A DNA stretch of 64,000 nucleotides from NCBI RefSeq assembly GCF_000146065.2, contig NC_020449.1:930001-994000 (forward strand), read 5' to 3'. Every line of letters starts with the position of its first letter. Within the stretch, counting starts at the first letter, position 1. This stretch comes from Candidatus Cloacimonas acidaminovorans str. Evry (GTDB taxonomy: Bacteria > Cloacimonadota > Cloacimonadia > Cloacimonadales > Cloacimonadaceae). The position numbers and the translations under genes were made by a program. The notes beneath the pieces were generated by a model. That model had not been told where the DNA came from. It worked only from the letters and a program-made list of their open reading frames with translations, and ran no database searches. Shown here one piece after another: positions 44,718-62,387 of this stretch.

Positions 44718-44726
44718 GGAGTGATT

Positions 44727-47234
44727 ATGAGTTTATCTATTCATCATATCGTCCTCGCTGCTCTGATGCATGATGTAGGAAAAGTGATGCAAAGAGCTGG
44801 CTGTTCTGATGTTCCCAAATATAAAGAGAAATGTCGGAAGGATTCTAATAATTACCTTACTTATAAACATGCGATGTGGACTGCGGATTTTCTGGATAGT
44901 CATCCGCTTACTTTACCGGAAGGAAATTGGGAATCAATTGTAGAATTAGCCAGCTCTCATCACTGCAAGGACAGTTGGGAAATGCATAATTATGACCATT
45001 ATTTGGATATGATTATGCAGGCAGATCAAATTTCTTCCAGTTGGGATAGAGAAGAGCCAGAAGAATCATCTACCGACAAGCAACGCTATCTGAAAGTGCC
45101 ACTCTATTCTGTTTTCAGTAAGGTAAGCACCGGGGAAAATAAAACTGCAACTAACTCTACTCAATGGACATATCCCTTACAGAAGTTGACTCCGGATAAT
45201 GCTTTTCCTAAGGAAAGTAATGATTTAATTGACCAAAGAGCTGCTTACAAAGCTCTCTTTGATAGCTTTGAAAAGGATTATTCAACTCTATGTGAATATT
45301 ATAATGATTTGGCAAAGAAAAATATAGCCACTTTTGAAACGGAGCATTTTCCTCAATTTATTGATGCCGTAGATAGCTTGCTGAAAACCTATTTCTGGTG
45401 TGTTCCGGCAAATACTATGGAATCTACACCCATTGGTTCGTTATATCATCATCTGCATAATAGTGCTGCCATTTCCGCTGCTTTATATGCTCAAGATGAA
45501 TGTAAAGAACATAGTGAACCTCCCTTTATAATTATTGCCGCTGACTTGAATGGTATTCAGAATTACCTTTACGACCTCAATCCGGAAAATTCTTCCAAAG
45601 CCAGTAAGCTCTTGCGTTCGCGTTCTTTTCAGATTCAGATGATTATGGAAATGTTGGCGGATAAAGTTATCAATGAACTTGATTTAAGCCACTTAAGCAT
45701 TATTTCCAGCCAGGGTGGAAGGTGGTTTATTCTTGCCAATAACTCTAAAGAAAATGAGCAAAAATTGGAAGAAGTGAAGAGGACTGTAAACGCAGAAATG
45801 TTTACCAGGTTTCTGGGTTTGGTTAGTATTAATCTTAGCTGGGAAACAAAGCTGGGCTTGGCTGACCTGGGGAAAGAACATTTTATTAACACAATGAATC
45901 GGGTATATGAGTTCTTGGAAAAAGAAAAAATGAACAGGTTTTCTGCTTATCTGCAAAAGGATAATCAGTGGCAAACCGAAAACTTCGTTATCAATCACGA
46001 TAATCTTTATTCCGACCAGATATGCGATTTTTGTAAACGGCGAAATTGCGATGATAAATCAAACGAAAAATATAGAGAAATTGAAAGCCCGGAAGAAGAA
46101 AACCCCCGCGTTTGCCATCATTGCTTACAGGAAATTAACTTAGGGAGAAATCTGGCTGAGAATAAAAACAAATTATTTAAGATTTGGCAGGGTGAAGAGG
46201 ATAAAAATACTTATATCCACTTTGCCGGAATGAACTTTTCTCAGGTAAAAGCAGATGAACCGGAGGCGCTTAAAGGAAAAGAGCATTATTTTTGCCTCAG
46301 TGAAGAAAACAAAAACCTCCAAATTCCCAAACGCTATCTTGCTACCCAAGTTCCCATAAAAAATGGCAAGGTTTCTACTTTTGATGAAATTGCTAAACAC
46401 AATGAAGGTTTGCAAGACAATGCTGTAATGAAAGGAGATGTAGATAATCTGGGTTATATTATAAGCCGCGGTTGGCAAAAAGATGATTCTGGAAATCCAA
46501 TTTGCTCCATCACCGAATATTCAACCCTGTCCTTTATGCTGGATTATTTCTTCAGTGCCTATCTACCGGCTCTGATAAAAAAGCAATATCAGGATTCCAT
46601 TTATACCATTTATTCGGGTGGAGATGATTTCTGCTTAATTGGAGCTTATGAAAAAGTAATAGCTTTCGCTTCAGAACTAAATGAAAAGTTCAATGAGTTC
46701 TGCGCTAAAAATCCGGATATTCATTTCTCTGCGGCAATTACTTTGGCTCATTCCAAAGAGCCAATAAAGTTCTCAATTAATTCTACAGAATTAAGATTGA
46801 AAGACGCAAAGCAGGAACCGCATAAGAATTCTTTGCACCTCTATGAAACCATTGTCCAGTGGGATAAATTAACCGATTTATTGGACTTTGCTGATAAATT
46901 AAATAATTGGTTAGATCAAGAAGAGCTAACTCTTCAATTCCTATATCGCTTGCTAACCTACCATCAAATGTATCTGGAAACCCTGAATAAAGAAAATGTA
47001 AACTATCGCAACTTTTTGTATGAGTCCCTTCTCAACTACGATATCAAAAGGAATATAGAAAAAATGAAGGACAATAAACTTACAAATCCTGAAATTGTAA
47101 ATAAACTTAGAAGTTTAACCGGTTTGGAAGAGGGAAACACAATGAAGTATTTAAGAATCCCTCTCTGCCATACAATTTACAAAAACCGCAACAAAACAAG
47201 AACGATAAAAACAAAGGAGAATAAAAATGTATAA
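44727..47234 (+). CDS. cas10: Cas10/Csm1, HD nuclease and cyclic oligoadenylate synthase of type III-A
   Basis: The 835-residue large subunit. Start at the ATG at 44727 with TAAGGAG five bases upstream; a GTG at 44721 would add two residues. An HD-type DNase motif is LMHDVGKV (His15, Asp16). A zinc-finger region follows at about residues 431-470 (CDFCKRRNC and CHHC). The second Palm domain carries the cyclase motif SGGDDF with Gly631-Gly632-Asp633-Asp634. Both activities thus look intact: target RNA binding should trigger single-strand DNA cleavage and conversion of ATP to cyclic oligoadenylates. It overlaps csm2 by 8 bp. Confidence 0.97.
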   Translation: MSLSIHHIVLAALMHDVGKVMQRAGCSDVPKYKEKCRKDSNNYLTYKHAMWTADFLDSHPLTLPEGNWESIVELASSHHCKDSWEMHNYDHYLDMIMQADQISSSWDREEPEESSTDKQRYLKVPLYSVFSKVSTGENKTATNSTQWTYPLQKLTPDNAFPKESNDLIDQRAAYKALFDSFEKDYSTLCEYYNDLAKKNIATFETEHFPQFIDAVDSLLKTYFWCVPANTMESTPIGSLYHHLHNSAAISAALYAQDECKEHSEPPFIIIAADLNGIQNYLYDLNPENSSKASKLLRSRSFQIQMIMEMLADKVINELDLSHLSIISSQGGRWFILANNSKENEQKLEEVKRTVNAEMFTRFLGLVSINLSWETKLGLADLGKEHFINTMNRVYEFLEKEKMNRFSAYLQKDNQWQTENFVINHDNLYSDQICDFCKRRNCDDKSNEKYREIESPEEENPRVCHHCLQEINLGRNLAENKNKLFKIWQGEEDKNTYIHFAGMNFSQVKADEPEALKGKEHYFCLSEENKNLQIPKRYLATQVPIKNGKVSTFDEIAKHNEGLQDNAVMKGDVDNLGYIISRGWQKDDSGNPICSITEYSTLSFMLDYFFSAYLPALIKKQYQDSIYTIYSGGDDFCLIGAYEKVIAFASELNEKFNEFCAKNPDIHFSAAITLAHSKEPIKFSINSTELRLKDAKQEPHKNSLHLYETIVQWDKLTDLLDFADKLNNWLDQEELTLQFLYRLLTYHQMYLETLNKENVNYRNFLYESLLNYDIKRNIEKMKDNKLTNPEIVNKLRSLTGLEEGNTMKYLRIPLCHTIYKNRNKTRTIKTKENKNV

Positions 47235-47658
47235 TTACCAACAAAATCGTAATACCCCACCCGATAGTGTAAAGAAACAATATGGACCCTTTTTTAAAGA
47301 GGACGGTTCTTTAATTCTGGACTGGGTTGGCGAAAAAGCAAATATCACTTCAAAAGATTTTAGTGATAAAAAGATGTCATCTACAGGATTGAGAAACTTT
47401 TATAATGAATTCCTGCGGATTAAGCAACTTCCAACAGAGCATAAGCAAGAGAAATTAATTTTGATAAAACTTCTTGTTGCTAAAGCCAATTATAAAGAAA
47501 TAAATTCAAAAGATAGAAGAAGCAAGATACCACATGAATTCACAATTTTTATTACTAAATTAGTTAAAGAAATAGGCGAAGATATCAAAAAATTTGAAAA
47601 TGCCTGCTTAATTATGGAAGCCATAGTTGGTTTCTTTCCAAATGATAAAGGAGAATAA
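47227..47658 (+). CDS. csm2: Csm2, small subunit of the type III-A complex
   Basis: A 143-residue helical protein with the Csm2 signature: KKQYGPFFKEDGSLILDW, followed by SSTGLRNFYNEFLRIK and KLLVAKANYKE. It forms the inner filament that contacts the target strand. AAGGAG precedes the ATG inside the cas10 end. csm3 starts 2 bp after its stop. Confidence 0.93.
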   Translation: MYNYQQNRNTPPDSVKKQYGPFFKEDGSLILDWVGEKANITSKDFSDKKMSSTGLRNFYNEFLRIKQLPTEHKQEKLILIKLLVAKANYKEINSKDRRSKIPHEFTIFITKLVKEIGEDIKKFENACLIMEAIVGFFPNDKGE

Positions 47659-47660
47659 AA

Positions 47661-48359
47661 ATGTTCACAACTAACATAATTACTGGAAAAATATTGCTTA
47701 GAAGCGGTTTACACATTGGTGGCAATAAGGATACTATGCAAATTGGTGGTATTGATAATCCCGTAATAAAGAATCCCTTAACCAATATGCCCTATATTCC
47801 GGGTTCTTCATTAAAAGGGAAGATGAGATTTTTACTGGAACATTATAATAACTTTGTTCAAGGCGATGGTAAGATACCAGGATTAAAAGTTAACGAGAGA
47901 GAAAATAAAATAGCCATAATTTTTGGGCATCTTGAGCATACTGAAAATAGTACTGATACCAAACCTACCCGGATTATTTTTTCCGATTGTAATATAATTG
48001 GGGCAAGAGATGAAACTGGTAATTTAATTACAGATCTTGAATATCTGAAAGAAAAAATGCTTTCCTGTTTTGTAGAAACAAAAACCGAAGTAACTATTGA
48101 CAGAATTACAGGAACAGCGAAAAAAGGTGGTCTAAGATCTTTAGAAAGAGTGCCTGCAGGTGTGGTTTTTGATTTGCATATTGTGCTGAAAAATTACGAA
48201 GACAGTGATAAAGATAATCTGGAAATAATCAAAAAGGGCTTAAAGCTTTTGGAAAATGATGCTTTGGGCGGTTCAGGTTCCAGAGGAAGTGGTAGAATAG
48301 AATTTCTTGATCTTCAAGTTGATGGAGCTTCTATAGATTTAAAATCAATTCAGCTGTAG
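47661..48359 (+). CDS. csm3: Csm3, backbone subunit and target RNA nuclease
   Basis: A 232-residue RAMP protein that forms the crRNA-binding backbone and cuts target RNA every six nucleotides. The catalytic aspartate is Asp32 in QIGGIDNPVIK; PYIPGSSLKGKMRFLLE and the C-terminal GGSGSRGSGRIEF loop are classic. RNA cleavage should be active, which also shuts off cyclic oligoadenylate synthesis over time. Confidence 0.97.
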   Translation: MFTTNIITGKILLRSGLHIGGNKDTMQIGGIDNPVIKNPLTNMPYIPGSSLKGKMRFLLEHYNNFVQGDGKIPGLKVNERENKIAIIFGHLEHTENSTDTKPTRIIFSDCNIIGARDETGNLITDLEYLKEKMLSCFVETKTEVTIDRITGTAKKGGLRSLERVPAGVVFDLHIVLKNYEDSDKDNLEIIKKGLKLLENDALGGSGSRGSGRIEFLDLQVDGASIDLKSIQL

Positions 48360-48368
48360 GAGGTCGTA

Positions 48369-49373
48369 ATGACTACCTGGAAAATATCCTGGAAACCCTT
48401 ATCTTCTCTTTCCACGCCTTTGCAGAGCGATACAATCTTTGGTCATCTTTGCTGGGCTGTAAATTACTTATGGGAAGATAAGAATAAACTTACGGACTTC
48501 TTAAATGCTCTTAAGGAAGCACCTTGTCTAATATTATCTTCAGCTTTTCCAGCAGGTTCTTTACCCAAACCGGTTATTCCCGTAAAGGATGAATTATTGG
48601 ATGAAATAAGGCAAACTTTGAAAGGAGAGCTGAATGAAATTACGGATTTGGAAATTTCTCAAGTGCTTAAGGATTTGAAAAAAGATAAGTGGATAAGAAG
48701 AAAAGACCTACAAGAAAAGAATTTTGTCTATGATGTAAAAAATGATTTGAAATCTTTATCACTGGTGAAAGGTAAAGAAATACTGAAAAACAGAGGTAAC
48801 CCCAAATTTAATCCTAAATCCGAAGAGGAAATAATAGAGTTTCACAATATGATAGATAGGATAACCGGCACCACTACCGGAAGCGGAGAACTATTTGCCA
48901 GCTCTACCGTATTTTATAATGACATCAGCTTTGAATCCTGGTTGGATACGGATTATTTTGGCGAATCTGAAATCAAGGAAATATTCCAGTTCATTGAACA
49001 GAATGGATTTGGCAAGGATAAGAACACCGGTAAAGGCAAATTTGAAATTCTGGTAGAAGAATTTCATTGGCAGGATTGTCCTCAGAATAATGCTTATCTT
49101 AATCTTTCCAATATGGTTCCCAGTTCAACAGATAGCACTATTGCATCCTATAATTCTAAAACTAAGTTTGGTAAAGTAGGAGGTGATTTTGCTATTCAGA
49201 AGACACCTTTCAAATATCCGATCTATATTATTGAACCAGGAGCTGTATTTTTTGCCCAAGGCAAGGATAAAAAACCGGTAGGTTCGTTACTAAGCAATAT
49301 CCATCCCACCGAGAATATTGTTCAAAACCTGTATTCTTTTAGTATACCAATTAAGATAAGTGAGGAACAATGA
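48369..49373 (+). CDS. csm4: Csm4, crRNA 5'-handle-binding subunit
   Basis: A 334-residue RAMP protein. The start MTTWKISWKPLSSLSTPLQS leads into DTIFGHLCWAVNYLW, a typical Csm4 opening, and a glycine-rich FGKDKNTGKGKFEILVEEF loop follows near residue 220. It joins Cas10 and holds the crRNA 5' handle. Its last four bases overlap csm5 (ATGA). Confidence 0.92.
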   Translation: MTTWKISWKPLSSLSTPLQSDTIFGHLCWAVNYLWEDKNKLTDFLNALKEAPCLILSSAFPAGSLPKPVIPVKDELLDEIRQTLKGELNEITDLEISQVLKDLKKDKWIRRKDLQEKNFVYDVKNDLKSLSLVKGKEILKNRGNPKFNPKSEEEIIEFHNMIDRITGTTTGSGELFASSTVFYNDISFESWLDTDYFGESEIKEIFQFIEQNGFGKDKNTGKGKFEILVEEFHWQDCPQNNAYLNLSNMVPSSTDSTIASYNSKTKFGKVGGDFAIQKTPFKYPIYIIEPGAVFFAQGKDKKPVGSLLSNIHPTENIVQNLYSFSIPIKISEEQ

Positions 49374-50404
49374 TTAGAGAAGGAAATATCAAATATAATG
49401 TGATTCCCTTAAGCTATGTTCATATTGGGAATGGCTCTACTTATGACCCCTTTAGTTTTGTTATCAAGAATGGTTATGCTTATAATATAAATCAAATCGC
49501 TTATATTGAATATCTCAAAAAAACAGCAAGTGCAGAATTTAATAAAGTGCTTGAATCTGAAGATTATAAATCTATACTGAGGTATTTATATGATTGTTTT
49601 GATCCCGATAACCATCTGTATTTAAGTCGCTATCCTGTAAATCCAGATATTGAATCTATTTTTTTAGAGCATATTAAAAATCCTGATAATCAGAATCAAA
49701 TTTGGGCTTTTACCAAAAATGCATTAGGGGTTCCTTATATTCCAGGAAGTTCTGTAAAGGGAGCTATTCGTTCCGCTATTATTGCTGCTTTACAAAGTAA
49801 AATCCAATTAAAAAATTTGAAAAGCGATTTTGAATTTGAATTGTTAGCAGGTGAGAATGAAAAAAAGGCAACTGTTAGTTCTGACCCTTTCAAATATTTA
49901 AAAATTTGTGATGCTCCCTTATCTGATAATTATCTGGATATTGAACGCATTGAAAGAATCTATATTGACAAGAATAAATCTTCTGCTCCTATATACGCAG
50001 AAACAATTAAACCGTCAGAATTGCCAATAACTAAAACGACTTTAACTTTATCGGATAATTTCTTGCAACATAAAGGTATTCAGTATCTTTTTCCTCCTCA
50101 AATGAAGATTATTGATAAAATACTTGCTATATTCCAAACCATAAATAGGTTTTATTATAATAAAATTGAAGAACTTAATAAAAAAATAACTAATCCCGAA
50201 ATAAAAGATGCATATAAACTAATTATTCTGGAATTAAAAAAACTTCTTTCTAATAATCGATCAGGTAATTTTATCCTTCATATCGGAAAGGGAGCTGGAA
50301 CAAATTTATTACAAATCCAAACTCCCAGTAGTGAATTTCCAAAAACCATAAGTTTAGTGGATAAAAAACCTATTGGCTGGCTTAAATTTGAGTTTTATAA
50401 ATAA
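49370..50404 (+). CDS. csm5: Csm5, terminal backbone subunit
   Basis: A 344-residue RAMP protein with IPLSYVHIGNGSTYDPFSFV and VPYIPGSSVKGAIRSAII, the paired Csm5 motifs. It caps the complex at the crRNA 3' end and helps in crRNA trimming. Codon use is more AT-rich than upstream genes but the gene is clearly part of the operon. Confidence 0.93.
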   Translation: MIREGNIKYNVIPLSYVHIGNGSTYDPFSFVIKNGYAYNINQIAYIEYLKKTASAEFNKVLESEDYKSILRYLYDCFDPDNHLYLSRYPVNPDIESIFLEHIKNPDNQNQIWAFTKNALGVPYIPGSSVKGAIRSAIIAALQSKIQLKNLKSDFEFELLAGENEKKATVSSDPFKYLKICDAPLSDNYLDIERIERIYIDKNKSSAPIYAETIKPSELPITKTTLTLSDNFLQHKGIQYLFPPQMKIIDKILAIFQTINRFYYNKIEELNKKITNPEIKDAYKLIILELKKLLSNNRSGNFILHIGKGAGTNLLQIQTPSSEFPKTISLVDKKPIGWLKFEFYK

Positions 50405-50490: not shown

Positions 50491-51582
50491 ATGAATTCTA
50501 TTATCCTTTCGCCGGTCGGAACCAGTATTTTTACTAAAGGGAAGTTTCCTCCCGAAATTAATAAATTCTCTAACTGCAAAAAGTTAGAAGAGATTCCTTC
50601 CGACCAGCGAGAGGAAATTTCTTCTTATATTCAAGAGGTAAAAGAATTGTTGCTGTCTTCCTCTATGGAAGATGTAAAAAAAAGGTCTGCCGAGCTGAAT
50701 GGCATTATTCGTTATTATAATGATAATCTGCGTAATGCTGCAAAGGATATTCATTATTTGTTACCGAGTGATACTTATATTGGAAGAAGTGCCTGTGAGA
50801 TAGTAAAAAGTTTTCTGCAAAATTATGTTAAAGATGTAAGGATTATGGAGATTAAGGATTTGCAGACCTACGATTGTGAAGGATTTCAATATGCATTAAG
50901 TGATTTGGTTAGCCAAATAATGACTATTAAAGAAGGGTTACTTTCTGAGCAAAAATTAATCTTTAACCTTACTGGCGGTTTCAAATCCATTCTTTGCTTT
51001 CTGCAATCGCTGGGGATGTTTTACGCTGATGAAACAGTTTATGTATTTGAATTTTCCGATTCTTTGTTGAGGATACCGGCTTTACCTGTAAAGTTAGTTC
51101 CTGATGATTATCTGAAAGAGTATATAACTGTTTTTCGCCGTTTGCACAATGGTTTGTCTGTTACTGAAGAGGAATATAATAAAATTCCGGAGAGTTTAAT
51201 TCTCAAGCTTTATGGTGAACCAACTCTTTCTGCTTATGGAAAGATTGTTTGGGATAATTTCCGCAAAGACCTCTATTCCGAAAAGCTGTTAGATTCCATC
51301 AGCCCGAAAGTAAAATACAGTGAGAGCTTCTGGAAAAGTACCAAGGACTTGGAGAAAGACCGTTTTTATAATCTGAATATGCGTATTGATGAAGTCAGTT
51401 GCTTTATGGAAAAGGAAAATAAACCCAATCCCGCTTCTTTAGACCTGAAAAAATTAGAAATCCCTAAAGGAATTAGCACTCACGAATTTGACGCTTGGGC
51501 AGATAAAGATGCTAAAAGGGTCTTTTGTCATTTTGAGCAAGATACTATGGTTTTAGATATTCTTTTGGAGGGCTTACACTAA
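50491..51582 (+). CDS. CARF-RelE effector, Cami1-like ribosome-dependent mRNA interferase
   Basis: A 363-residue protein starting at 50491 after AGAGGAGAAAAA. The N-terminal ~205 residues form an APE2256-type CARF domain: IILSPVGTSIFT at the start, LIFNLTGGFKSILCFLQSLG (about 156-175) as the ligand loop. After a helical linker, residues about 245-363 look like a RelE/ParE-fold toxin: RFYNLNMRIDEVSCF, SLDLKKLEIPKG, then HEFDAWADKDAKRVFCHFEQ and a final beta strand. CARF-RelE proteins (Cami1) bind cyclic tetra-adenylate and cleave mRNA on ribosomes. The RelE part is inferred from pattern, not alignment. The 3' end overlaps the opposing cad1 by 9 bp. Confidence 0.8.
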   Translation: MNSIILSPVGTSIFTKGKFPPEINKFSNCKKLEEIPSDQREEISSYIQEVKELLLSSSMEDVKKRSAELNGIIRYYNDNLRNAAKDIHYLLPSDTYIGRSACEIVKSFLQNYVKDVRIMEIKDLQTYDCEGFQYALSDLVSQIMTIKEGLLSEQKLIFNLTGGFKSILCFLQSLGMFYADETVYVFEFSDSLLRIPALPVKLVPDDYLKEYITVFRRLHNGLSVTEEEYNKIPESLILKLYGEPTLSAYGKIVWDNFRKDLYSEKLLDSISPKVKYSESFWKSTKDLEKDRFYNLNMRIDEVSCFMEKENKPNPASLDLKKLEIPKGISTHEFDAWADKDAKRVFCHFEQDTMVLDILLEGLH

Positions 51583-53637
51583 TTGCATTATTTTTTGTTC
51601 GGCTTTTTTGATTAGTTCCTGCTTCTGTTCTTTGTTTTGAAAAGAGCTTACAAAACTATTCCGAATCAGAGTTAAAATCTCCCATTTACTTAATCCGCCT
51701 TCTGTCATTTTAGCCGCTTTTAAATATTCTTTGCTGATATCGGTTCTGGAAATTCCCGGATCGTCAGAACAAATACAAACCTTTATCCCTTTTTGTAAAT
51801 ATTGTTTCAAAGGATAAATACACATTTTAGAAGTAGAATTAATACTATAGTCCCGATATCCCTTTATTTGAAAATTGCTGCTGGGACAAAGTTCAATAGC
51901 AGTTCTCTTGTCTTTCAGTTTTTCCATCAGGTTTTCATCATCTTGCAAATATAACCCGTGTCCAATTCTATCGGCATTTAAGTTATACACTGTATTCCAC
52001 ATATTTTTAACAGAAGTAGTTTCTCCGGAGTGAATAGTAATTCTTAGGCAATCCTCCAATAGAGGTAATATTTTTTCTCTTAAAGAAATTGTTTCTCCCA
52101 TTTCCGGCCCTGCCAAATCAAAACCACAGATAAAATCGCTGATTTTCCCATTTTGTCCTTTTAATTCTTTACACAGATTGATGTGTTCATTTAAAATTTT
52201 AGGGCTTTTATGTCTACTACCGATGATAATTAAACGGAAAACGCATTCTGCATCTTTCAATTCGTCATACAATATTTCCACCACTTCAGTTGCTTTTAAA
52301 TTATTGGTATAGTTACAAGGTGAGCATCTTAATTCCTTATAAAGCAGGTTATTCTTTTTTGCATCATCTTTCAATTGCTTACATATCTCTCGTAATGCTT
52401 CTTCTGTTTGTAATAGGGTAGAACCCTGAAAATCGCCAATCTCCTCATATCTGTTTAAGCCGATTGCTATAAAGTTTTCTTCCTGAAGCATATCTCCCCA
52501 GATAACCTGTTCCAGCAAATTTTCATTGTTCTCAAAACAGAGTAAATATAAACTGCTATCTAAGCAGCGTAAGTTATTTTCCTGCATATTTATTGCTTTC
52601 CAGGTTGCTCTCAGCTCATTAAGGTTTTTCTTTTGGATAGAAGCAGTAATTTCTCTTTCCAGTTCTTTTTCCTTTAAGCTGTTACCTAAATATTTAGCAT
52701 TTGCTGTAGCAATCTTAATTAATCCTTTAGTATCTGCAAAACCACCCAAATGACAATGTAAATCAGTTTTGGGTAAATTATACAGCCACCTCAGGTCTTG
52801 TTTGCTGTTATCAATTCCGTTTATATATTTCTTTTTCAGCTCATTTATTTTGTCGGGATTTAACAGATGAAGAATTTGAAAATTGGAAGCGGGTTCAGAA
52901 TAGCGCAGTTTATTATAATAGTTGATTGTAAGATTATCCTGTTGTGCTTGTAGCTTTTCTACCAAATCCAGAAAGGAGGTATCTTCATCATTATAGCTAT
53001 ATATATTATCTGTAATTTCAGCTTTAGGAAGTTTAACTTCATTGTCCTCCATTAATTCTGCCAGTTTACCGGCAGGAATATCTTTATTATAAAGAACCGG
53101 GGTTATTTTGTTTATTTCTTGATAAGCTATATTTTCCGGTGTTGTCTCCAAATCAAAATTCACCATCCCCTCGGCTAAAATATGAATCATTGCTTTGCAC
53201 CCAAATAGATATGCAGCTTGTTGTATGTCACTGCTCATTGTTTTTCTGCCACCGCTAAGGCATAGATAAAGGTCTTGTGTGTTTCCTGTTTTATAAACCT
53301 TATAAACGATGCTATAAATTAAGTTTCTCATCATTCTGGCATCATTTTGGCTTAATATATCGGTCAGTTGGTTTAACTTATGAAATTGCAATTCTATATT
53401 TAAATTTTGAGCTGTTAACCAATTTTCTACCTCTTGTTTGCTGGTTGTAAAACTATCTTCAGTACAAATCATCGTGATAGATGTTACCGGTTTCAATTGA
53501 TTCTCATCTATTTCTGCCTGCAATGCTTCAAAATTTTTATGGTTACAATACAGAGGGTATTGTTGATAATTTAAAAAGCCCACCACTTCTGCAATCAAAT
53601 GACTCGTTTTACCCATTGAGACGATTAATTGGCTCAT
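51574..53637 (-). CDS. cad1: Cad1, CARF-adenosine deaminase effector
   Basis: A 687-residue fusion. Residues 1-170 form a CARF domain of the Csx1 type (LIVSMGKTSHLIAEVV; ligand loop LSGGRKTMSSD at 127-137). A linker follows, then an adenosine deaminase barrel from about 285: zinc ligands His294 and His296 (TDLHCHLGG), HSGE with catalytic Glu539, His560 (RIGHGL), CPSSN, and Asp625 in SDDPGIS. All catalytic residues are present. Cad1 enzymes turn ATP into ITP when cyclic oligoadenylate binds, stopping growth. The start is 8 bp after the calpL stop with no clear ribosome site, so translation is probably coupled. It is last in the calp operon. Confidence 0.92.
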   Translation of the reverse strand: MSQLIVSMGKTSHLIAEVVGFLNYQQYPLYCNHKNFEALQAEIDENQLKPVTSITMICTEDSFTTSKQEVENWLTAQNLNIELQFHKLNQLTDILSQNDARMMRNLIYSIVYKVYKTGNTQDLYLCLSGGRKTMSSDIQQAAYLFGCKAMIHILAEGMVNFDLETTPENIAYQEINKITPVLYNKDIPAGKLAELMEDNEVKLPKAEITDNIYSYNDEDTSFLDLVEKLQAQQDNLTINYYNKLRYSEPASNFQILHLLNPDKINELKKKYINGIDNSKQDLRWLYNLPKTDLHCHLGGFADTKGLIKIATANAKYLGNSLKEKELEREITASIQKKNLNELRATWKAINMQENNLRCLDSSLYLLCFENNENLLEQVIWGDMLQEENFIAIGLNRYEEIGDFQGSTLLQTEEALREICKQLKDDAKKNNLLYKELRCSPCNYTNNLKATEVVEILYDELKDAECVFRLIIIGSRHKSPKILNEHINLCKELKGQNGKISDFICGFDLAGPEMGETISLREKILPLLEDCLRITIHSGETTSVKNMWNTVYNLNADRIGHGLYLQDDENLMEKLKDKRTAIELCPSSNFQIKGYRDYSINSTSKMCIYPLKQYLQKGIKVCICSDDPGISRTDISKEYLKAAKMTEGGLSKWEILTLIRNSFVSSFQNKEQKQELIKKAEQKIMQLV

Positions 53638-53645
53638 ATTTTAGC

Positions 53646-55166
53646 TCATAAATTTAACATTTTATCCAGGGAGAACACACACCGATATTTTGGCTCTTCA
53701 GCATTAAACTGATAGTGATAAACATCAACTGGCAAAAAATGTCCTACAGCAATTCCCAAAGCCATACAAAGTGCGGTAGGAGCTGTCTGAAACAAATGAA
53801 TTCTTTCCCAATGATATTCTTGTCTGGCTGTATTTAAAGCAGAATTTATTTCTTGCAAATATGGCAGCCAGTTTTGGCTTGTTTCCATTACCCCTTGGTT
53901 TTCTCTGGCTTGTATAATTAAGAAATTATTTATCTGTAATTGTTTTTGACAATATGCTTTTGCCTCTCCAATCGGATTATGGCTTCCCAGATAAATAATG
54001 AAACCCAGTTCGTTTTTATGTGGCTCATTAATTAATAGTTCGCTTTGGATATATTGGTAGTCCTCTTTTTTAACAGAAACATTTTTCAGTTGCCTGGCAT
54101 TTTCTTTTCCGTAGAGGATAAAAACCTCGTGGTAAGTAGTATTGGAAAATTCCATTTGTAAAATACTTACTGCTCTTTTAAATCCGAAAAGAGCACCAAT
54201 TCCCAATTGCAAAGTGCTTATTTGTCCGGCATAAAACCATAAGACCTTCTTCGGCATCACCTTATCTTCCAGAAGTTTGAATTTATCTTTCACCTGTTCT
54301 TGCAGCAATTTTTGCCAGGCATTGGCTTCAAAAGGAAGAATGCCATTACCGAAAATAGCCAGGTCACTATTTGTGATACCGTAAAAATCTTCCAATAGTT
54401 CATAGCTAAACCAGCTGAATTTTTCCTGCACTTTTTGTTCCATTGCTTTTTGCCAACGCTTTAGTTCATTCTCTTCACCTTGATATTGAATAACAGGCAG
54501 GGGAATGGTTTCAGTATTTAACCAGGCATCAAGCTGTTCAATTTTTTTTATTCTATGCACCAGGTTTTGGCAGCAGCGCTTTTTGTATTCAATTTCTTCT
54601 GCTGTAATAATTTCTCCGGAGGGCAAAACAATACCGCTATAGGCAATTTTAGAGATTATTTTTTCATCTTTTACTAGCAAAGTTGCCAAAACTGCCAGTT
54701 GCCAGGAATTTCCCTGTATATTTTTATTAAAACCGATAAGGCAGTTTTGCTTTCCTAATTGTGCCAAATAGCTGAAGTTTTCAATTTTATCGCCTAAAAT
54801 GGCTAATGCTATCGGTTCCTCGGATTTCAGTTTATATACAAATACTTTTGCTAAAAAAGCATTTTTCCGGCTATCTACCGCCGGGAAAAGACCTATTTTA
54901 GGTTGTTGCTGGCTAAGGGATTTTAGTTCGTTTTCCGAAATTCCCCAAAGCTTACTTAACTGGGTTAAATATTTTCTCTTAGCGGAAAGCCAAAGCAGAG
55001 CATTCAGCTTTATATACGGGTTGTTTGCTTTTTCCAGTAAATTATAAACCCACTCTTCATCATCTTCTGAAACTCTATCTTGCTGAATGTATTGCAAAAT
55101 TATAAGTTCTGCTTCTGCTGAACCGCTTTTTAAATATTTATCGGCTGTTTCGTTAAATTTTGGCAT
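53646..55166 (-). CDS. calpL: CalpL-like Lon protease-SAVED effector
   Basis: A 506-residue protein. After a helical N-terminal ~90 residues, residues about 95-215 match a Lon/S16 peptidase core: nucleophile Ser154 in QGNSWQLAVLATLL, the segment SGIVLPSGEIITAEEIEYKK and a lysine, Lys195, 41 residues on; published CalpL has, as I recall, Ser152 and Lys193 with the same spacing. Residues about 300-506 match a SAVED sensor: VLWFYAGQISTLQLGIGA, LGFIIYLGSHNPIGEAKAYC and the C-terminal HLFQTAPTALCMALGIAVGH followed by VDVYHYQF. CalpL is activated by cyclic tetra-adenylate and cleaves its partner CalpT. No membrane segment is seen. Confidence 0.85.
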   Translation of the reverse strand: MPKFNETADKYLKSGSAEAELIILQYIQQDRVSEDDEEWVYNLLEKANNPYIKLNALLWLSAKRKYLTQLSKLWGISENELKSLSQQQPKIGLFPAVDSRKNAFLAKVFVYKLKSEEPIALAILGDKIENFSYLAQLGKQNCLIGFNKNIQGNSWQLAVLATLLVKDEKIISKIAYSGIVLPSGEIITAEEIEYKKRCCQNLVHRIKKIEQLDAWLNTETIPLPVIQYQGEENELKRWQKAMEQKVQEKFSWFSYELLEDFYGITNSDLAIFGNGILPFEANAWQKLLQEQVKDKFKLLEDKVMPKKVLWFYAGQISTLQLGIGALFGFKRAVSILQMEFSNTTYHEVFILYGKENARQLKNVSVKKEDYQYIQSELLINEPHKNELGFIIYLGSHNPIGEAKAYCQKQLQINNFLIIQARENQGVMETSQNWLPYLQEINSALNTARQEYHWERIHLFQTAPTALCMALGIAVGHFLPVDVYHYQFNAEEPKYRCVFSLDKMLNL

Positions 55167-55440
55167 TTTTTATATTTCCTATTCCTCGGAACTTTTTTTT
55201 ATCCTGCTATTTTACTCTCTCTTCGCCAGGTTAAAACCCGGCTACTTCTAAATGAGTTATGGTTATTTTATTCACCGGATTAAAATCCGTTGTTATTATC
55301 TATCGTTCCTACGGAACTTTTTTTGTTCTGTCTTCATTTCTTATATTCAAAATCCTGTAAATCCTTTTTATCCTGTTCATCCCATACTTATTCTCATTTG
55401 TTAATCTGCGTCATCCGCGAAATCTGCGTGAACCCTTCCT
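55167..55440. other. intra-operon spacer with dispersed repeats
   Basis: 274 bp between calpT and calpL, wide for an operon. It holds a copy of the TCCTGTTCATCCCA and TCTGCGTCATCCGCGAAATC repeats (about 55370-55430) and an inverted pair of CGGAACTTTTTTT words (55187, 55312). It may contain a promoter or processing site of its own. Confidence 0.5.
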
Positions 55441-56340
55441 TCAAAGCACCTTAAGCTTTATATCCAAAAGGTCTTGTGCCTGTTTTGGGAAAAAGGGCAC
55501 AAAATTTGCCAGGACAATTTGTTTAGGCAATTTTCCTTTAAACACTATTATATTTCCACAACGAATTTCCGCTTTTTTATCAATCAGATTTTCATCCGGA
55601 AGTAATAGTAAATTATGGCATTCATCTTTTTGCAATGTATAATTCTCAGCAAAATAAGCATAGTCATTGAGCTTCTTCATATCAGGAGAAATAATACCCA
55701 GAGCAAATTGTGCTATATGTTTATCGGCAGCCGCAAGTTGCAAAGTATCTTCAGGTTTTCTTTTATATTGCAGTTCAATCTGAGGAATCCAAATTAGGGG
55801 ATTGCTTTGTCTGCATCTTAATTCCAAGGTAATATTATGTTCCATAATCCGGAATTTGTTTTCGGGACTTTCCAGGTCTGTATTTATATTTTTATTAATT
55901 GGATGCTCTTTTTTCAGTTCTAATTTCAACTTCTCCAAATTCTTTCTTTCAATAAAATCCATTTCTATTGCCTCTTCAATTTCTTGTTCTGTAATATAAA
56001 AGTAGTTATCTGTTTCCAGAATGTATTTTCCGCTGTCGGTTGCAAACAAAATGTCAAATTCACTGGCAAAAACAGTATAGGGGCTTAATTTATAAGCTAA
56101 ATACCGATCCTTTCCCATTTCGTCTATTATTAAACAGCAAATTAAATAATCGTTATTTTCAAGCATTATAATACTACCGGGTAATTGATCGGGATACTGT
56201 TTGGGCTCTGGAAAACTGAATTCTGCATCTTCAGGCAGAAATAATTCCCTATCTTCCAGTTCTATTGGGGGCGTTTTTGTCTCTTTTTTAATACCCTCCA
56301 AATATGCCTGGTATAAAAGTTCTTTATCTTTTTCGTTCAT
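55441..56340 (-). CDS. calpT: CalpT-like partner (MazF-like domain) of the Lon-SAVED protease
   Basis: A 299-residue protein starting at 56340 behind AAGGAG. Residues about 45-105 (YPDQLPGSIIMLENNDYLIC, then CLIIDEMGKDRYLAYKLSPY) have the strand pattern and opening PGS-I of MazF/PemK-like small barrels. The central part is charged and probably flexible (EKLKLELKKEHPINKNINTD), a plausible cleavage site; the C-terminal ~120 residues form another beta-rich domain. In the known CalpL-CalpT-CalpS complex, CalpT tethers the sigma factor and is cut by the protease. The assignment rests mostly on context, with weak sequence support. It begins 16 bp after calpS. Confidence 0.65.
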   Translation of the reverse strand: MNEKDKELLYQAYLEGIKKETKTPPIELEDRELFLPEDAEFSFPEPKQYPDQLPGSIIMLENNDYLICCLIIDEMGKDRYLAYKLSPYTVFASEFDILFATDSGKYILETDNYFYITEQEIEEAIEMDFIERKNLEKLKLELKKEHPINKNINTDLESPENKFRIMEHNITLELRCRQSNPLIWIPQIELQYKRKPEDTLQLAAADKHIAQFALGIISPDMKKLNDYAYFAENYTLQKDECHNLLLLPDENLIDKKAEIRCGNIIVFKGKLPKQIVLANFVPFFPKQAQDLLDIKLKVL

Positions 56341-56356
56341 TATAAACTCCTTATCT

Positions 56357-57169
56357 TTATTCGCCCTTTTCTTTTTTATATGTAGGGTAAGGTGGACAGC
56401 TCTGACATATTTTTTTCAGGAAGTTATAAATAAAAAGGCGACCTACATTGTCATCAAAATTATTGTTTTCCAATGTCTGTTTAAACTTTTTTCTGATTCT
56501 TTCGTGCAGTTTATAGATATTATCCCTACTTTCATCCCTTAAACGCTTTGTTCCTCCTTTACTTGGTTCTTCCAATTCATGGCATAAAACATTTATTTCT
56601 CTTTTGTCCCATTCTTCATTTATTATAATTACCAGTAGTTTAGCTTTATATCGGTTAACAATATCATATTGAATATAGGGTAAATCTATAAATTGTTTAT
56701 TGTTGTAGTTCCCATAGTATTCTTCTCTTAAAATATGATTAATCTTGTCTTCCATTAGTTCATTAATGAATTCTTCCACACAATGCTTTGTAATATTTTC
56801 CGCAGTTTTGTAAAGATATTTGCCAAAGTCCTCTTCCTTACCCAATTCTTTTTCTTTCTTTTTCAGCTTGTCTACTTGAGGCAACATCTTCTCAATTATT
56901 TTCCCCATTAAACAATAATACATTTCTCCCTCATCCAAACTTGCCTTGAGACATAAATCTTTCAGCAATTTAAACTGAACAGGCCTTTTACCCAAAAACA
57001 TCCGGATTAGTGTAAAAATTTGATATTGTAGCTTTTTGTCGCTGCTTAGCAAATTCGGCTGTTTCAGTACTGTCCATAAGGCATTTTCCAGAGAAATTAT
57101 GTCTTTATCATTTTCTCCATCATTTCGCCATTTTTGGTAACCTTGATTGAAGGTATTTTTCTTTTCCAT
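56357..57169 (-). CDS. calpS: CalpS-like sigma factor (ECF-type)
   Basis: 270 residues from the ATG at 57169, which has GAAGGAAATCAGT upstream; a TTG-started extension to 57226 is less likely because it would overlap the promoter. Residues about 65-145 are helical and could match sigma region 2. Residues 185-232 (EEWDKREINVLCHELEEPSK, then KRLRDESRDNIYKLHERIRK) look like sigma region 4, the -35-binding helix-turn-helix. The first gene of a four-gene minus-strand operon. In the described system the sigma factor is freed when CalpL cuts CalpT. The C-terminal ~35 residues with CQSCPP are extra. Confidence 0.65.
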   Translation of the reverse strand: MEKKNTFNQGYQKWRNDGENDKDIISLENALWTVLKQPNLLSSDKKLQYQIFTLIRMFLGKRPVQFKLLKDLCLKASLDEGEMYYCLMGKIIEKMLPQVDKLKKKEKELGKEEDFGKYLYKTAENITKHCVEEFINELMEDKINHILREEYYGNYNNKQFIDLPYIQYDIVNRYKAKLLVIIINEEWDKREINVLCHELEEPSKGGTKRLRDESRDNIYKLHERIRKKFKQTLENNNFDDNVGRLFIYNFLKKICQSCPPYPTYKKEKGE

Positions 57170-57197
57170 ACTGATTTCCTTCTTTTGCGTTTTTTTC

Positions 57198-57226
57198 CTT
57201 ATGAAATAGCTTTGTTTTTTTGTCAA
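57198..57226 (-). promoter_or_regulatory. candidate promoter of the calpS-calpT-calpL-cad1 operon
   Basis: On the minus strand a perfect TTGACA (57221-57226) is followed, after exactly 17 bp, by CATAAG (57198-57203, four of six). It lies 28 bp ahead of the chosen calpS start and directly beside the 22-nt tandem repeats. Confidence 0.55.
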
Positions 57227-57239
57227 TCAAAACAGTTTG

Positions 57240-57649: not shown

Positions 57650-59542
57650 ATGATTTTAGATAACATCACTAACTTGGGAAGTAAAGAAATCAAGTTTTCG
57701 GAAAATGAATTTCATTCTTTCCGGGTGCGTTTTAATAATCTTTTTATTAAAGAAGATATTGAAACGGCTCATAACCTCGCTTTAAATATGCTGCCTGTTG
57801 AAAATCTGCAAAGTTCCGAACTGGTAGAATTGGCTCGCTGTTTTCAACTTTTGGGAGATAAAGATAACACTCTTGCTTGTTTGGAAAAAGCTATTCAAAT
57901 TGATTCTCATAACAAGAACGCCAAAATGTTGAAACTGGAATTGCTGGATTCGCTGGAGCAAAAAGAACAATATTTAGATTTTTTACAGCAATGTTTGGAA
58001 AGTGACCCTCAAGAAAAGCAGTATTATTTACTTTTACATAGCTATTATACTGAAAATGGACAAAATGAGCTTGCTGAAAATATATTCTCTCTTGCTTTAA
58101 GTTATGGAATAGATTTGGAGCCACCTAATCCGGATATAGAAATTTCTGTTGCTGATTCCCTTGTTGAACCGGAATGTATAGATGATCCTATTCTAATAAA
58201 CAGCTATCTTACTCTCTTTGCGGGGAGGGAAAATTGCCATTCCAGGCAATGGGTTTCCGATAAAGGTAAGACAGGTTATACTCCTGTTATGGAACCTCTA
58301 AATCCTGTATTGATCCGTAATCATTTACAAGGTATTCAGACCTTGGGTGTGTATCAATTAACATTGAATAATCAAGTGAAATGGATTGTCTTTGATATTG
58401 ATATAATTAATGATTATCTTGATGATCTGCATGATCCTCATTTTCGCGAATGGATAGATAACGGTTTTCTGCAAGTGCTAAGTAATTTTGATAATATTTT
58501 ACAAACCTTTCATCTAAAAGCCGTCTATGAATATAGTGGTTATAAGGGTTATCATATTTGGTTATTTTTACAGGAAGTTACCAGCGCGGCTATTGCCAGA
58601 AGTTTTGCCTTGAAACTTGCCTCCCAAATTGATCTCAGTTCTTTTCCTTTGAAAATTGAGGTCTTTCCGAAACAAACAAGAACTTCTGCCAATAATTTTG
58701 GTAGCTTGATCAAGCTTCCGGGAGGAATACATCGTTTTTCCGGTTTGAAAAGTAATTTTTTTAATCTGAAAGATGGTGTTTTGGAGCCGCTACCTCTTAC
58801 TATGCTTTTAAAACAACCTCCTTTAATTTCTCCCGCTGATTTTATGTCTGCATTATGTTCCTTACAACCGGATTTTTCCTTTGGCAAAACGGATTATGCT
58901 TTAAATGAAGAGCAAACAAACAAGATAGAAGTTCCCTTATTAGGTTCTAATACTCCCCCGGAACTTGATCCCCAATGGCTTTGGCTGAAACAACACTGTT
59001 CTGCTCTTGCTTTTATTTGCCAGGAGATTGAAACACACCATCTTTTAAATAAGGAACAGAAAAAAGTGCTGATCCATTGTGTTGGTCACTTGGAAAGAGG
59101 ACCCGATATCGTAAACTACTATCTCAGGAAATGCAGTAATTGCGAACCTTCAGATCTTTTAAAATCTCCCCTGAAAAGTAATGTAATAAGCTGCAACAAA
59201 ATACGCAATTACTTAAACTGCAACGGTCTTGATTATGATTGCTTTTGTGATTTCACAGCTAAAATGTCCAGTTACGATCATCCTCTTGTGCATTTGGAGG
59301 ATTTTTCACCTGCAAATTATTCTCCTTCCGGAAATAATGAATTAATGCTCAAAGAGACAATTTATAAATATCTGGATATTAAGCGTAGAAATAATGAACT
59401 AAGTGGAACTCTCCAACAACTGGAAAAACAAATCTTAGAGCTTTTTGAACATATTGGAGTGGAAGAATTTATAACTCCTTATGGAATCTTGAAAAAAATC
59501 ACTTCCGAAAATAGCGTAAAATTAATCCTAAAGCTAAATTAG
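57650..59542 (+). CDS. CRISPR-associated primase-polymerase (CAPP) with N-terminal TPR
   Basis: A 630-residue protein starting at 57650 after AAAGGAG. Residues about 1-160 form TPR-like helices (ELARCFQLLGDKDNTLACLE). The AEP/PrimPol core follows: the metal-binding pair Asp249 and Asp251 in WIVFDIDIIND, the motif SGYKGYHIWLF with His302, and a third motif region near KLPGGIHRF. The C-terminal third holds spaced cysteines (HCSALAFICQ, LRKCSNC, ISCNKI, LDYDCFCDF) that may bind a metal or iron-sulfur cluster. CAPP proteins are known next to cas1-cas2 in some type III systems and are thought to make or extend DNA during spacer acquisition. Different from the mobile-element primase at 39868. Confidence 0.82.
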   Translation: MILDNITNLGSKEIKFSENEFHSFRVRFNNLFIKEDIETAHNLALNMLPVENLQSSELVELARCFQLLGDKDNTLACLEKAIQIDSHNKNAKMLKLELLDSLEQKEQYLDFLQQCLESDPQEKQYYLLLHSYYTENGQNELAENIFSLALSYGIDLEPPNPDIEISVADSLVEPECIDDPILINSYLTLFAGRENCHSRQWVSDKGKTGYTPVMEPLNPVLIRNHLQGIQTLGVYQLTLNNQVKWIVFDIDIINDYLDDLHDPHFREWIDNGFLQVLSNFDNILQTFHLKAVYEYSGYKGYHIWLFLQEVTSAAIARSFALKLASQIDLSSFPLKIEVFPKQTRTSANNFGSLIKLPGGIHRFSGLKSNFFNLKDGVLEPLPLTMLLKQPPLISPADFMSALCSLQPDFSFGKTDYALNEEQTNKIEVPLLGSNTPPELDPQWLWLKQHCSALAFICQEIETHHLLNKEQKKVLIHCVGHLERGPDIVNYYLRKCSNCEPSDLLKSPLKSNVISCNKIRNYLNCNGLDYDCFCDFTAKMSSYDHPLVHLEDFSPANYSPSGNNELMLKETIYKYLDIKRRNNELSGTLQQLEKQILELFEHIGVEEFITPYGILKKITSENSVKLILKLN

Positions 59543-59551
59543 AAGGATATT

Positions 59552-60913
59552 ATGAACCAGAAATCGGAAATTGTAAACAATGCTTGGAACCTTATGAAAC
59601 AAGGCAATTATAAAGATGCCCTGCCCATACTGGAAACTTCTCTAAATGAAGACCTATCCCAAAACTATTTTTTGGCATCTCTTTTACTGGATTGCTATAA
59701 TAAGCTTGGTTTATACCAAAAAGCAATAGCTTTGGGAGAAGAACTTTGCTCCAAAGAAAACTGTTGGGCTTCCATCAAACAAAGCTATGCCTGGAGTTTA
59801 TATTTTGCCTATTTTAAAAATTCCGCTACCCTTTCTCCCGAAGAAGCAATTCCTATTCTTGATAAAATGGCACTCATAACCGATTGTAATAAAAAAGTAA
59901 ATCCCCTTTCTTTATCTATCTTTTCCTATCTTTCCCAAAATAAACAAATTACCCCGGAACTAACTATTCAATTGCTGGATATGCTAAAGTTTGATTTACT
60001 GGATGATAAACCTGTTCAATTGAAAAAAAACGGTAAAACGCTTGCTTCCCCCAAAGAACGATTTATTTGTTATTATACCAAGGCACTTTATATGGAAAAA
60101 AATTACTCCCGCTGCATAGCTTGCTGTAAACGTGCTTTAGAATTAAGTTCAAATTCAAAAAGGCAAACTACTTTTAATGACGCTCAAAATAAAGCAACTA
60201 CCAATGCTGATAGTAACCAAGCAGCTTTGTTTATCTCTTCCGATAATCTGATCTGGATAAAAAGGCGTCTGGCTCTATCTCTTTATTACTTAGGTGAATA
60301 TGAACAAGCAGAAGAAATTATGAAGCAAATAATCAAGAAAAAGAAGGATTGGTTTTTATTTCACGAATTAAGCCAAATTGTTTATAAAAAAAATGAACCA
60401 GAAAAAGCTCTTAGTTATGCCGCAATGGCTTCTTCTGCTATTGGAGATGCAGAAATGAAAATCCATCTCTGGGATTTTCTGTATCAGCTATTAGTGGAAA
60501 CCAAAAATTATCCTCAAGCTGTTAAAATTCTTTCTCTTGCTGCCGCTATTCGCTTTCAAAAAGGATGGAATATTTCTCCTTCCCAAAAACAGGAATTAGC
60601 AAAATATAACCTAATTCCCGAAAAACTACCTCCCTTTAAAGATATATTAAATGAACTAAAACCTTGGTTTGCCGAAATCTCTTATGCTGAAAATGAGCGT
60701 TTAACTGGTTATATTGCTAATTTGTTGCCCCATAAAAAAGCCGGTTTTATCAATTCCGGTAATAAAAGCTTCTATTTTAAAGTTTCAGCTTGCTTATTTA
60801 ACCCGGAATATATTGTCCCAGATACAAAAGTATCCTTTATTGCGGAAAGCAGTTATGATCCCAAAAAACAGAAGGATTCCGTTATTGCTGTTAATATCAA
60901 AAGGATTGAATAA
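59552..60913 (+). CDS. TPR protein with a cold-shock/OB-like C-terminus, in the adaptation module
   Basis: A 453-residue protein, not a known Cas family to me. The start follows AGAAGGATATT. Residues about 5-350 are TPR-like helices (YLGEYEQAEEIMKQIIKKKK); residues about 388-453 look like a cold-shock-type OB fold (LTGYIANLLPHKKAGFINSG, then YFKVSACLF, VPDTKVSFIAE and a closing strand), a nucleic-acid binding module. Its TAA shares a base with the cas1 ATG (TAATG), and it follows the CAPP gene by 9 bp, so the four genes should be one operon. A role in handing nucleic acid to Cas1-Cas2 or to CAPP is inference. Confidence 0.75.
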   Translation: MNQKSEIVNNAWNLMKQGNYKDALPILETSLNEDLSQNYFLASLLLDCYNKLGLYQKAIALGEELCSKENCWASIKQSYAWSLYFAYFKNSATLSPEEAIPILDKMALITDCNKKVNPLSLSIFSYLSQNKQITPELTIQLLDMLKFDLLDDKPVQLKKNGKTLASPKERFICYYTKALYMEKNYSRCIACCKRALELSSNSKRQTTFNDAQNKATTNADSNQAALFISSDNLIWIKRRLALSLYYLGEYEQAEEIMKQIIKKKKDWFLFHELSQIVYKKNEPEKALSYAAMASSAIGDAEMKIHLWDFLYQLLVETKNYPQAVKILSLAAAIRFQKGWNISPSQKQELAKYNLIPEKLPPFKDILNELKPWFAEISYAENERLTGYIANLLPHKKAGFINSGNKSFYFKVSACLFNPEYIVPDTKVSFIAESSYDPKKQKDSVIAVNIKRIE

Positions 60914-61947: not shown

Positions 61948-62096
61948 CTTATACCGCTGGAGGAATTTTAAGTTTGAAGGTAGCAATGCTGAGATATACT
62001 TTAACCATCTCTATAACTTATCTGACAGGGAGGATTCTTAATAACAATAAATGGTTCTCTGCCCTCTGCCCTCAGCTTATAATAAGGAGTTCTATT

Positions 62097-62387
62097 ATGT
62101 CCCTAAACAAACATCTCTATGTCGTCGCTTTTGATATCGTTTCCGATAAAATTCGCTACCGCTGTGTTAAAATTCTCCTTTCCTACGGACAAAGAGTCCA
62201 AAAAAGCGTTTTTGAATGTATCCTAAACGATAAACAATTCCTGGATATGAAATCCAAACTTGATAACACTATAAACCCCGAAATAGATAGCATTCGCTAT
62301 TACCTCCTCTGTGCAAATTGCGAAAAAAACATATCTGTCTCCGGAATCGGATTATATTCTTACTTTGAAGATCTAATCATCGTTTAA
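62097..62387 (+). CDS. cas2: Cas2
   Basis: A 96-residue Cas2 starting at the ATG at 62097 with AAGGAG upstream. It opens SLNKHLYVVAFDIVSDKIRY, with the aspartate of AFDIVSD typical of the family, then RRxKILLSYGxRVQKSVFEC-type residues (CVKILLSYGQRVQKSVFEC). The open frame runs on upstream to 61938 but that part overlaps cas1 and has no family match. It forms the central dimer of the Cas1-Cas2 integrase. Confidence 0.96.
   Translation: MSLNKHLYVVAFDIVSDKIRYRCVKILLSYGQRVQKSVFECILNDKQFLDMKSKLDNTINPEIDSIRYYLLCANCEKNISVSGIGLYSYFEDLIIV

Follow-up and report, generated by a model that had tools for sequence, protein, structure and literature searches.

The 64,000-nucleotide (nt) window analysed here covers positions 930001-994000 of the single 2,246,820-base contig of Candidatus Cloacimonas acidaminovorans str. 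Evry (genome G000). It contains a type III-A CRISPR (clustered regularly interspaced short palindromic repeats) locus with cas6, cas10, csm2-5, a gene for a primase-polymerase (PrimPol), cas1, cas2, and a CRISPR array. The locus also encodes three effectors, Cami1, Cad1 and CalpL, the last of which is accompanied by CalpT and CalpS. The following features represent the putative signal source and the effector region, with positions counted in the window:

44721..47234, + strand: cas10/csm1 (NCBIfam TIGR02578 (Csm1), E=2.2e-184), with HD at residue 17 and GGDD at residue 633
50491..51582, + strand: CARF-RelE mRNA interferase of the Cami1 type (PADLOC CARF_RelE PDLC01934, E=2.3e-122, residues 1-362)
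51574..53637, - strand: Cad1-type CARF-adenosine deaminase (PADLOC CARF_ADA PDLC01908, E=4.9e-229, residues 1-687)
53646..55166, - strand: CalpL, SAVED-Lon protease (CcaCalpL; PADLOC CRISPR-Lon, 1.4e-155)
55441..56340, - strand: CalpT, anti-sigma partner and substrate of CalpL (PADLOC CRISPR-T PDLC01048, E=2.3e-75, residues 10-297)
56357..57169, - strand: CalpS, putative diverged sigma factor resembling the extracytoplasmic function (ECF) type (weak PADLOC helix-turn-helix (HTH) match, 9.6e-7)
57216..57226, - strand: TTGACAAAAAA, candidate -35 box upstream of calpS, invariant in 4/4 aligned species

On the + strand, cas6, cas10, csm2, csm3, csm4, csm5 and the CARF-RelE gene follow each other in this order. 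The - strand carries, in the direction of transcription, calpS-calpT-calpL-cad1, and PrimPol, the gene of a TPR-OB protein, cas1 and cas2 are again found on the + strand. The CARF-RelE gene forms the end of the csm operon, and its stop codon overlaps that of cad1 by 9 nt. Since the two frames overlap at their 3'-ends, the two operons converge. A preliminary description of this DNA had placed the CARF-RelE gene, cad1 and the Lon-SAVED gene side by side in two facing operons, and the csm and calpS-calpT-calpL-cad1 operons indeed meet in this way. All genes of the effector region are open reading frames (ORFs) at the positions listed.

The HD and GGDD motifs of Cas10 were identified by motif inspection, and both are kept in the related genomes G002, G006 and G016. 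The GGDD motif suggests that this Cas10 is an active cyclase. The presence of the cyclase motif rules out its loss, and since only one Cas10 (PF22335), that of the window, was found in the genome, an additional type III locus was rejected as well. The reading of the locus as one type III-A complex around a Cas10 with intact GGDD, as previously proposed, therefore agrees with the single Cas10 and the presence of Csm2-Csm5.

Over its full length the CARF-RelE protein combines an APE2256-type CARF domain with a RelE-type C-terminal domain, as in Cami1 (PDLC01934; structures 8phj and 8phb). In a Foldseek search with its AlphaFold model (mean predicted local distance difference test (pLDDT) 79, lower towards the C-terminus) the top four matches were Cami1 chains of 8phj/8phb, the best of them with E=2.7e-14 over 387 columns. 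VIA aligned residues 3-363 of the model to 8phj_X with Z 18.6 and 322 aligned residues at a root mean square deviation (rmsd) of 14.7, a high value that points to rotated domains or to a poorly modelled C-terminal part. Hence, the protein matches Cami1 structurally in both the CARF and the C-terminal part, but shares only 17-19% identity with it. For the CARF domain alone, the best alignment was to the ring nuclease Sis0811 (Z 19.4, 192 aligned residues at an rmsd of 3.3). Its residues S12 and K165 align with S12 and K169 of Sis0811, which were mutated in Sis0811 structures, and are invariant in 7/7 relatives. K320, R343 and H347 are also invariant in 7/7; their equivalence to RelE catalytic residues is not established, and the 8phb profile alignment ends at residue 258.

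Cad1 matches the profile of CARF and adenosine deaminase (ADA) across all of its 687 residues. Its best matches in the PDB were the CARF-deaminase structures 9c67 (BabCad1), 9ebt (TaqCad1, by residue numbering) and 8z3k (probably LngCAAD). The metal and catalytic residues were retained in the alignments, in which H243, H448, E451, H472 and D533 of BabCad1 correspond to H294, H536, E539, H560 and D625 of the window protein. K132 aligns with K106 of TaqCad1 (9ebt), the motif-II Lys that binds cyclic oligoadenylate (cOA), and Gly298 aligns with G264 of TaqCad1, a Gly at the ADA Asp19 position being of the Cad1 type. Thus, the protein resembles the known Cad1/CAAD structures in domain order, cOA-binding Lys, this Gly, and metal and catalytic residues, but differs from them in its length of 687 residues, in Asp626 for Asn, and in Glu398 for Met.

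In CalpL, S154 and K195, which we take to be the Ser-Lys dyad in analogy to S152/K193 of SsCalpL, are invariant in 8/8 aligned proteins. Residues 2-506 are identical, letter for letter, to the chain of PDB entries 9eyi, 9eyj and 9eyk, which leaves no difference from CcaCalpL in this arm. Entry 9EYJ represents CcaCalpL from Candidatus Cloacimonas acidaminovorans bound to cyclic tetraadenylate (cA4) (PMC12751052), and its filament in the cA4-bound state, the activation of its protease and a ring-nuclease activity have been published. Since the CalpL of the window is the published CcaCalpL, one arm of the locus is already known. According to Binder et al., the Calp arm may be a response that is reversible and quenches itself; the accessible parts of the CcaCalpL literature do not discuss Cad1 or Cami1 beside CalpL. 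Among the ring-nuclease candidate residues of SsCalpL (H345, H392, H474, S325, S391 and S451, with H392 as the strongest; PMC11417357), four out of six are kept, H392, H474, S391 and S325 corresponding to H396, H484, S395 and S317, and two are changed (H345 to Q337 and S451 to T461).

CalpL was described to cleave CalpT into CalpT23 and CalpT10 of approximately 23 and 10 kDa (PMC11417357). The CalpT of the window contains AAA at residues 203-205, which is also found in the form AAAD in G002, G006 and G042, and a cut at this site would result in calculated fragments of approximately 24.3 and 10.8 kDa. From the sequence we infer that AAA 203-205 is the CalpL cleavage site.

CalpS probably starts at 57169, which corresponds to M20 of a frame of 289 amino acids, and a calpS-type gene adjoins calpT and calpL in 8 genomes. 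Pfam gave no significant match for CalpS and no sigma match in any of 8/8 CalpS members, and NCBIfam likewise gave no sigma call. No sigma factor was among the 45 rows that Foldseek returned for the AlphaFold model of CalpS (pLDDT 77; best E 1.2). VIA of the same model resulted in 43 RNA polymerase or sigma entries out of 50 rows, with Z values of 3.5-5.6 that lie below the safe level of the tool for helical models. Just upstream of calpS, the invariant element TTGACAAAAAA is surrounded by otherwise variable DNA. From this cross-species identity, the element may represent the promoter of the calp-cad1 operon. When one mismatch was allowed, it was not commoner in the window than expected by chance, and scanning the locus for promoters gave 68 sites compared to 73.3 in shuffles.

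The five families assigned in the preliminary description were supported by full-length matches for Cami1, Cad1, CalpL and CalpT, and wrong family calls for these four proteins were rejected on the basis of PADLOC profiles, Foldseek and VIA. None of these four proteins lacked the expected fold and the cyclase motif is not lost, findings that would have spoken against that description. The assignment of CalpS is the least firm, with a weak HTH match, modest Z values in VIA and correspondingly modest support for its fold.

No stand-alone ring nuclease was recognised in the locus, which is what the preliminary description had noted. Three leftover short ORFs of at least 70 amino acids (43218-43475, 57120-57362 and 62571-62819), considered besides antisense ORFs, did not match any PADLOC family. 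Genome searches for APE2256-type CARF and SAVED domains returned only Cami1 and CalpL. A genome search for Csx3, made without a positive control, was empty, and the searches of the whole genome covered no further ring-nuclease families. The accompanying suggestion that the sensors may switch off the signal themselves holds in part. Ring-nuclease activity has been published for CalpL and Cami1 (PMC12409355, PMC12830947), so that self-clearing is right for CalpL and, by analogy, likely for Cami1. For Cad1 the precedents conflict, as TaqCad1 cleaves cA4 and BabCad1 cleaves neither cA4 nor cyclic hexaadenylate (cA6) (PMC11645235).

We consider it likely that the locus encodes a single type III-A system with three arms gated by a cyclic oligoadenylate, most likely cA4, and without a recognised stand-alone ring nuclease in the locus. 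Target RNA recognition would activate the cyclase suggested by the GGDD motif of Cas10, and the messenger, which is expected to be cA4 from the family, would open the three arms. As judged from its family, Cami1 may cut mRNA at the ribosome. Cad1 would deaminate an adenine nucleotide, probably adenosine triphosphate (ATP) or a relative, although this family-based expectation is weakened by the change in its active site. CalpL would form cA4-bound filaments, cleave CalpT, and release CalpS; for the CalpL part of this arm the same protein has been described in the literature. In analogy to its family, freed CalpS may redirect transcription. The sensors themselves would switch the signal off, as published for the CalpL of the window and for the Cami1 family. 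Rather than firing all at once, the arms probably respond in a graded manner and may differ in their thresholds or timing, since a programme driven by a sigma factor depends on ATP and translation, both of which would be destroyed by Cami1 and Cad1.

Several points weigh against this interpretation. At the positions of N549 and M311 in TaqCad1 the window Cad1 carries D626 and E398, and the TaqCad1 variant N549D showed no reaction on ATP (PMC12669630). Since Asp626 replaces this Asn and N549D is inactive on ATP, conversion of ATP to inosine triphosphate by the window Cad1 is less certain than its family would suggest. BabCad1 prefers cA6 and leaves its ligands uncleaved, and thus neither cA4 as the ligand nor self-clearing is assured for the window Cad1. 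The RelE catalytic residues of Cami1 could not be verified in a C-terminal part that was modelled with low confidence. Finally, the sigma identity of CalpS is based on operon position, literature and VIA, with modest support from the fold.

The distribution of the trio bears on the question of whether its members belong together. CalpL, Cad1 (E<=1e-40) and CARF-RelE (E<=1e-8) were searched in 124 Cloacimonadota genomes. CalpL was found in 9 of these, one of the matches (G009) being a fragment of 87 residues at the end of a contig, CARF-RelE also in 9, and Cad1 in 3. All three effectors were found together in 3 out of 124 genomes (G000, G002 and G006), which belong to one genus, represent 3 of the 8 genomes covered for it, and share the same gene order. 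The order is also the same on a 15-kb contig of G042 that extends from csm2 to cas2, but cad1 is missing between calpL and the CARF-RelE gene, and Cad1 was not found elsewhere in this genome at E<=1e-40. In G016 and G103 CARF-RelE is paired with a CARF-PDDEXK nuclease instead.

Across the domain, 386 relative genomes were searched at E<=1e-20, of which 11 contained CalpL, 22 CARF-RelE, and 6 both; in one of the latter, G219, the match is better described as CARF-DUF2103. The domain-wide search for CARF-ADA was tuned to the Cad1 branch of the window, and its count is a lower bound: full-length CARF-ADA was found in at least 4 genomes among the matches listed (G000, G002, G006 and G345). In G345, Cad1 and a CARF-PDDEXK nuclease are encoded together in a single type III locus, and a CARF-RelE-like gene is located on another contig. 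In the unrelated genome G251 (L099) the CalpL and CARF-RelE genes lie next to each other in convergent orientation on a short contig with a type I-C-like cas3; calpT and calpS were not detected at this locus. The named loci with CalpL relatives found by a contig scan (n=10) comprised 7 from Cloacimonadota, 2 from Persephonella, and 1 weak case from Spirochaetales.

The notion in the preliminary description that the trio is unusual is in line with its occurrence in 3 of the 124 genomes of the phylum and with a survey of 1113 type III loci, in the accessible text of which three-effector loci are rare and CalpL is seldom found alone (PMC11229360). Among the combinations given there are Csx1 with Can1-2 and Cam1 in 3 loci and Csx1 with Cami1 in 54. 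Cad1 is not part of the effector set in this text, and because of this omission the window locus, if included, would score as Cami1 plus CalpL. The window shares with such multi-effector loci the presence of several cA4 effectors behind one Cas10; in contrast, its trio is not among the combinations described in the accessible text of this survey without Cad1. No literature description of Cami1, Cad1 and CalpL in one locus was found in a search outside of which most subscription papers lay, and this negative result does not prove that none exists. All components are members of known families, and type III loci with several effectors have been described before; what is less ordinary is the trio, which is a rare combination.

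Constraint on the genes was estimated from the ratio of nonsynonymous to synonymous substitution rates (dN/dS) by the Nei-Gojobori method for one pair, G000 and G002, with dS values of 0.6-1.6 that make the ratios approximate. Identity and dN/dS in this pair were 84% and 0.16 for cami1, 76% and 0.14 for cad1, 77% and 0.14 for calpL, 65% and 0.20 for calpT, 59% and 0.18 for calpS, and 82% and 0.17 for cas10. Between G000 and G006 the identities were 64% for cami1, 54% for cad1, 55% for calpL, 40% for calpT, 38% for calpS, and 62% for cas10. From these sequence comparisons all three arms look to be under purifying selection and none appears relic-like. Decay of one arm was rejected, given dN/dS values of 0.14-0.20 in the single pair compared.

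Among the alternatives, the one that survives best in our view, although rather unlikely, is that the three effectors are loosely assembled, redundant cassettes that reside together by chance and without a staged logic. The varying partners in G042, G016, G103 and G345 as well as the restriction of the trio to 3 of the 124 genomes of the phylum and 3 of the 8 genomes covered for the genus fit this explanation. It is opposed by the gene order kept in three species, with Cami1, Cad1 and CalpL 54-84% identical to those of the window, by the constraint on all arms, and by the convergent CalpL and CARF-RelE genes of the unrelated G251, though without detected calpT and calpS.

A further alternative concerns the active site of Cad1. 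Glu398 and Asp626, at the TaqCad1 positions Met311 and Asn549, together with the Cad1-type Gly298 form an unusual active site that is common to three Cloacimonas species. D626 is present in 3/3 Cloacimonas Cad1 proteins, whereas Asn, which is expected of Cad1, is found in 9c67, 9ebt, 9ubl and G345. The Cad1 of G345, from another phylum, has Asn at the N549 position but also Glu at the M311 position. From an alignment of 32 rows, 7 that do not represent the ADA frame (L054, L057, L059, L064, L069, L073 and L076) were ignored and L053 repeats G119, so that 24 remained. Asn occupied the D626 position in 17/17 housekeeping-type ADA rows, in G345, and in the fragment G319, and Asp was found only in the three Cloacimonas Cad1 proteins and G119 among the rows kept. 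Asp626 is thus the rarer state among the aligned relatives and appears to be derived. In the accessible text on TaqCad1, Asn at this position is described for TaqCad1 and close homologs, the variant N549D/G264D increased a weak activity on adenosine, a variant M311D was made, and mouse ADA has Asp296 at the corresponding position (PMC12669630). We did not conclude from Asp626 alone that ATP deamination is ruled out, as Asp is compatible with deamination in other enzymes, such as mouse ADA.

Cad1 might mainly act as a cA4 sink whose ring-nuclease activity tunes Cami1 and CalpL, with its deaminase activity being minor or directed to another adenine substrate. TaqCad1 was described to degrade cA4 and to dampen its neighbour Csx1 (PMC12669630), and two active-site positions differ from TaqCad1, one of them tested as the ATP-inactive N549D. 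On the other hand, the catalytic and metal residues are kept, dN/dS of the whole cad1 gene is 0.14, BabCad1 is devoid of ring-nuclease activity, and cA4 is already removed by CalpL (PMC12409355). We regard a predominant role of Cad1 as a sink as unlikely.

Returning to the system of three arms gated by one messenger, a more specific version is doubtful, and we mention it as speculation. Here, two or three sensors with an additional ring-nuclease function would both read and degrade a single cA4 pool in a self-erasing graded circuit. The reversible sigma response would come first, the arms that destroy ATP and mRNA would follow only if cA4 outran its sinks, and the Cloacimonas Cad1 with its shifted active site would act on a substrate other than ATP. 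That the arms read different messengers, e.g. cA6 for Cad1 and cA4 for the others in a multi-signal system, as the preference of BabCad1 for cA6 might suggest, is improbable, because LngCAAD and TaqCad1 prefer cA4 and loci mixing signals are very rare among the 1113 loci of the survey without Cad1, as far as its accessible text describes them (PMC11229360).

The remaining features of the locus are:

43613..44557, + strand: cas6 (PADLOC Cas6, E=2.6e-47; Pfam CRISPR_Cas6, 4.8e-12, on the longer frame 43541-44557)
47227..47658, + strand: csm2 (PADLOC Csm2, 1.6e-10)
47661..48359, + strand: csm3 (PADLOC Csm3, 5.1e-63)
48369..49373, + strand: csm4 (PADLOC Csm4, 5.9e-73)
49370..50404, + strand: csm5, a diverged allele (PADLOC Csm5, 6.2e-32)
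57650..59542, + strand: CRISPR-associated primase-polymerase (NCBIfam PrimPol_Msp, 7.6e-79)
59552..60913, + strand: TPR-OB protein of the adaptation operon (PADLOC PDLC01170, 4.9e-60)
60913..61947, + strand: cas1 (Pfam Cas_Cas1, 4.9e-79)
61938..62387, + strand: cas2 (PADLOC Cas2d, 1.3e-23)
62831..64000, no strand assigned: CRISPR array with a repeat of approximately 37 nt in at least 16 copies, the last one cut by the end of the window

The product of csm3 contains the aspartate of the GID motif, presumably the RNase residue. The csm5 gene is 28-30% identical to those of three relatives, which share 37-49% among themselves; in contrast, the neighbouring csm4 is 51-75% identical to its relatives. 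In sequence, csm5 looks like a replaced or fast-evolving allele. Between cas6 and cas10, a hydrophobic micro-ORF of 32 codons with a strong Shine-Dalgarno sequence was found at 44619-44717, and short hydrophobic ORFs are also located between these genes in G002 and G006. Coding of the micro-ORF was not supported, as the codon changes compared to G002 were 1 synonymous and 15 nonsynonymous, and an NCBIfam search gave no match. The PrimPol and TPR-OB genes (57650-60913) adjoin cas1-cas2 in the window as well as in G002, G006, G042 and G016. At 55167-55440, calpT and calpL are separated by 274 nt that are repeat-like and appear not to code; in G002 and G006 these two genes nearly abut. Between calpS and PrimPol, a tandem array of the 22-nt unit ACTTTGAACTTTGAACTCCCGC extends over 7.2 copies at 57244-57409. 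An Rfam scan of the window gave nothing at the gathering level.

In this locus, a single Cas10 is followed by three outputs that differ in their chemistry and can be assayed separately; the structure of one sensor is solved, and the gene order is conserved in three species. G042 represents a natural relative that is devoid of one of the three effectors. This rare set of three could show how such effectors share one signal.

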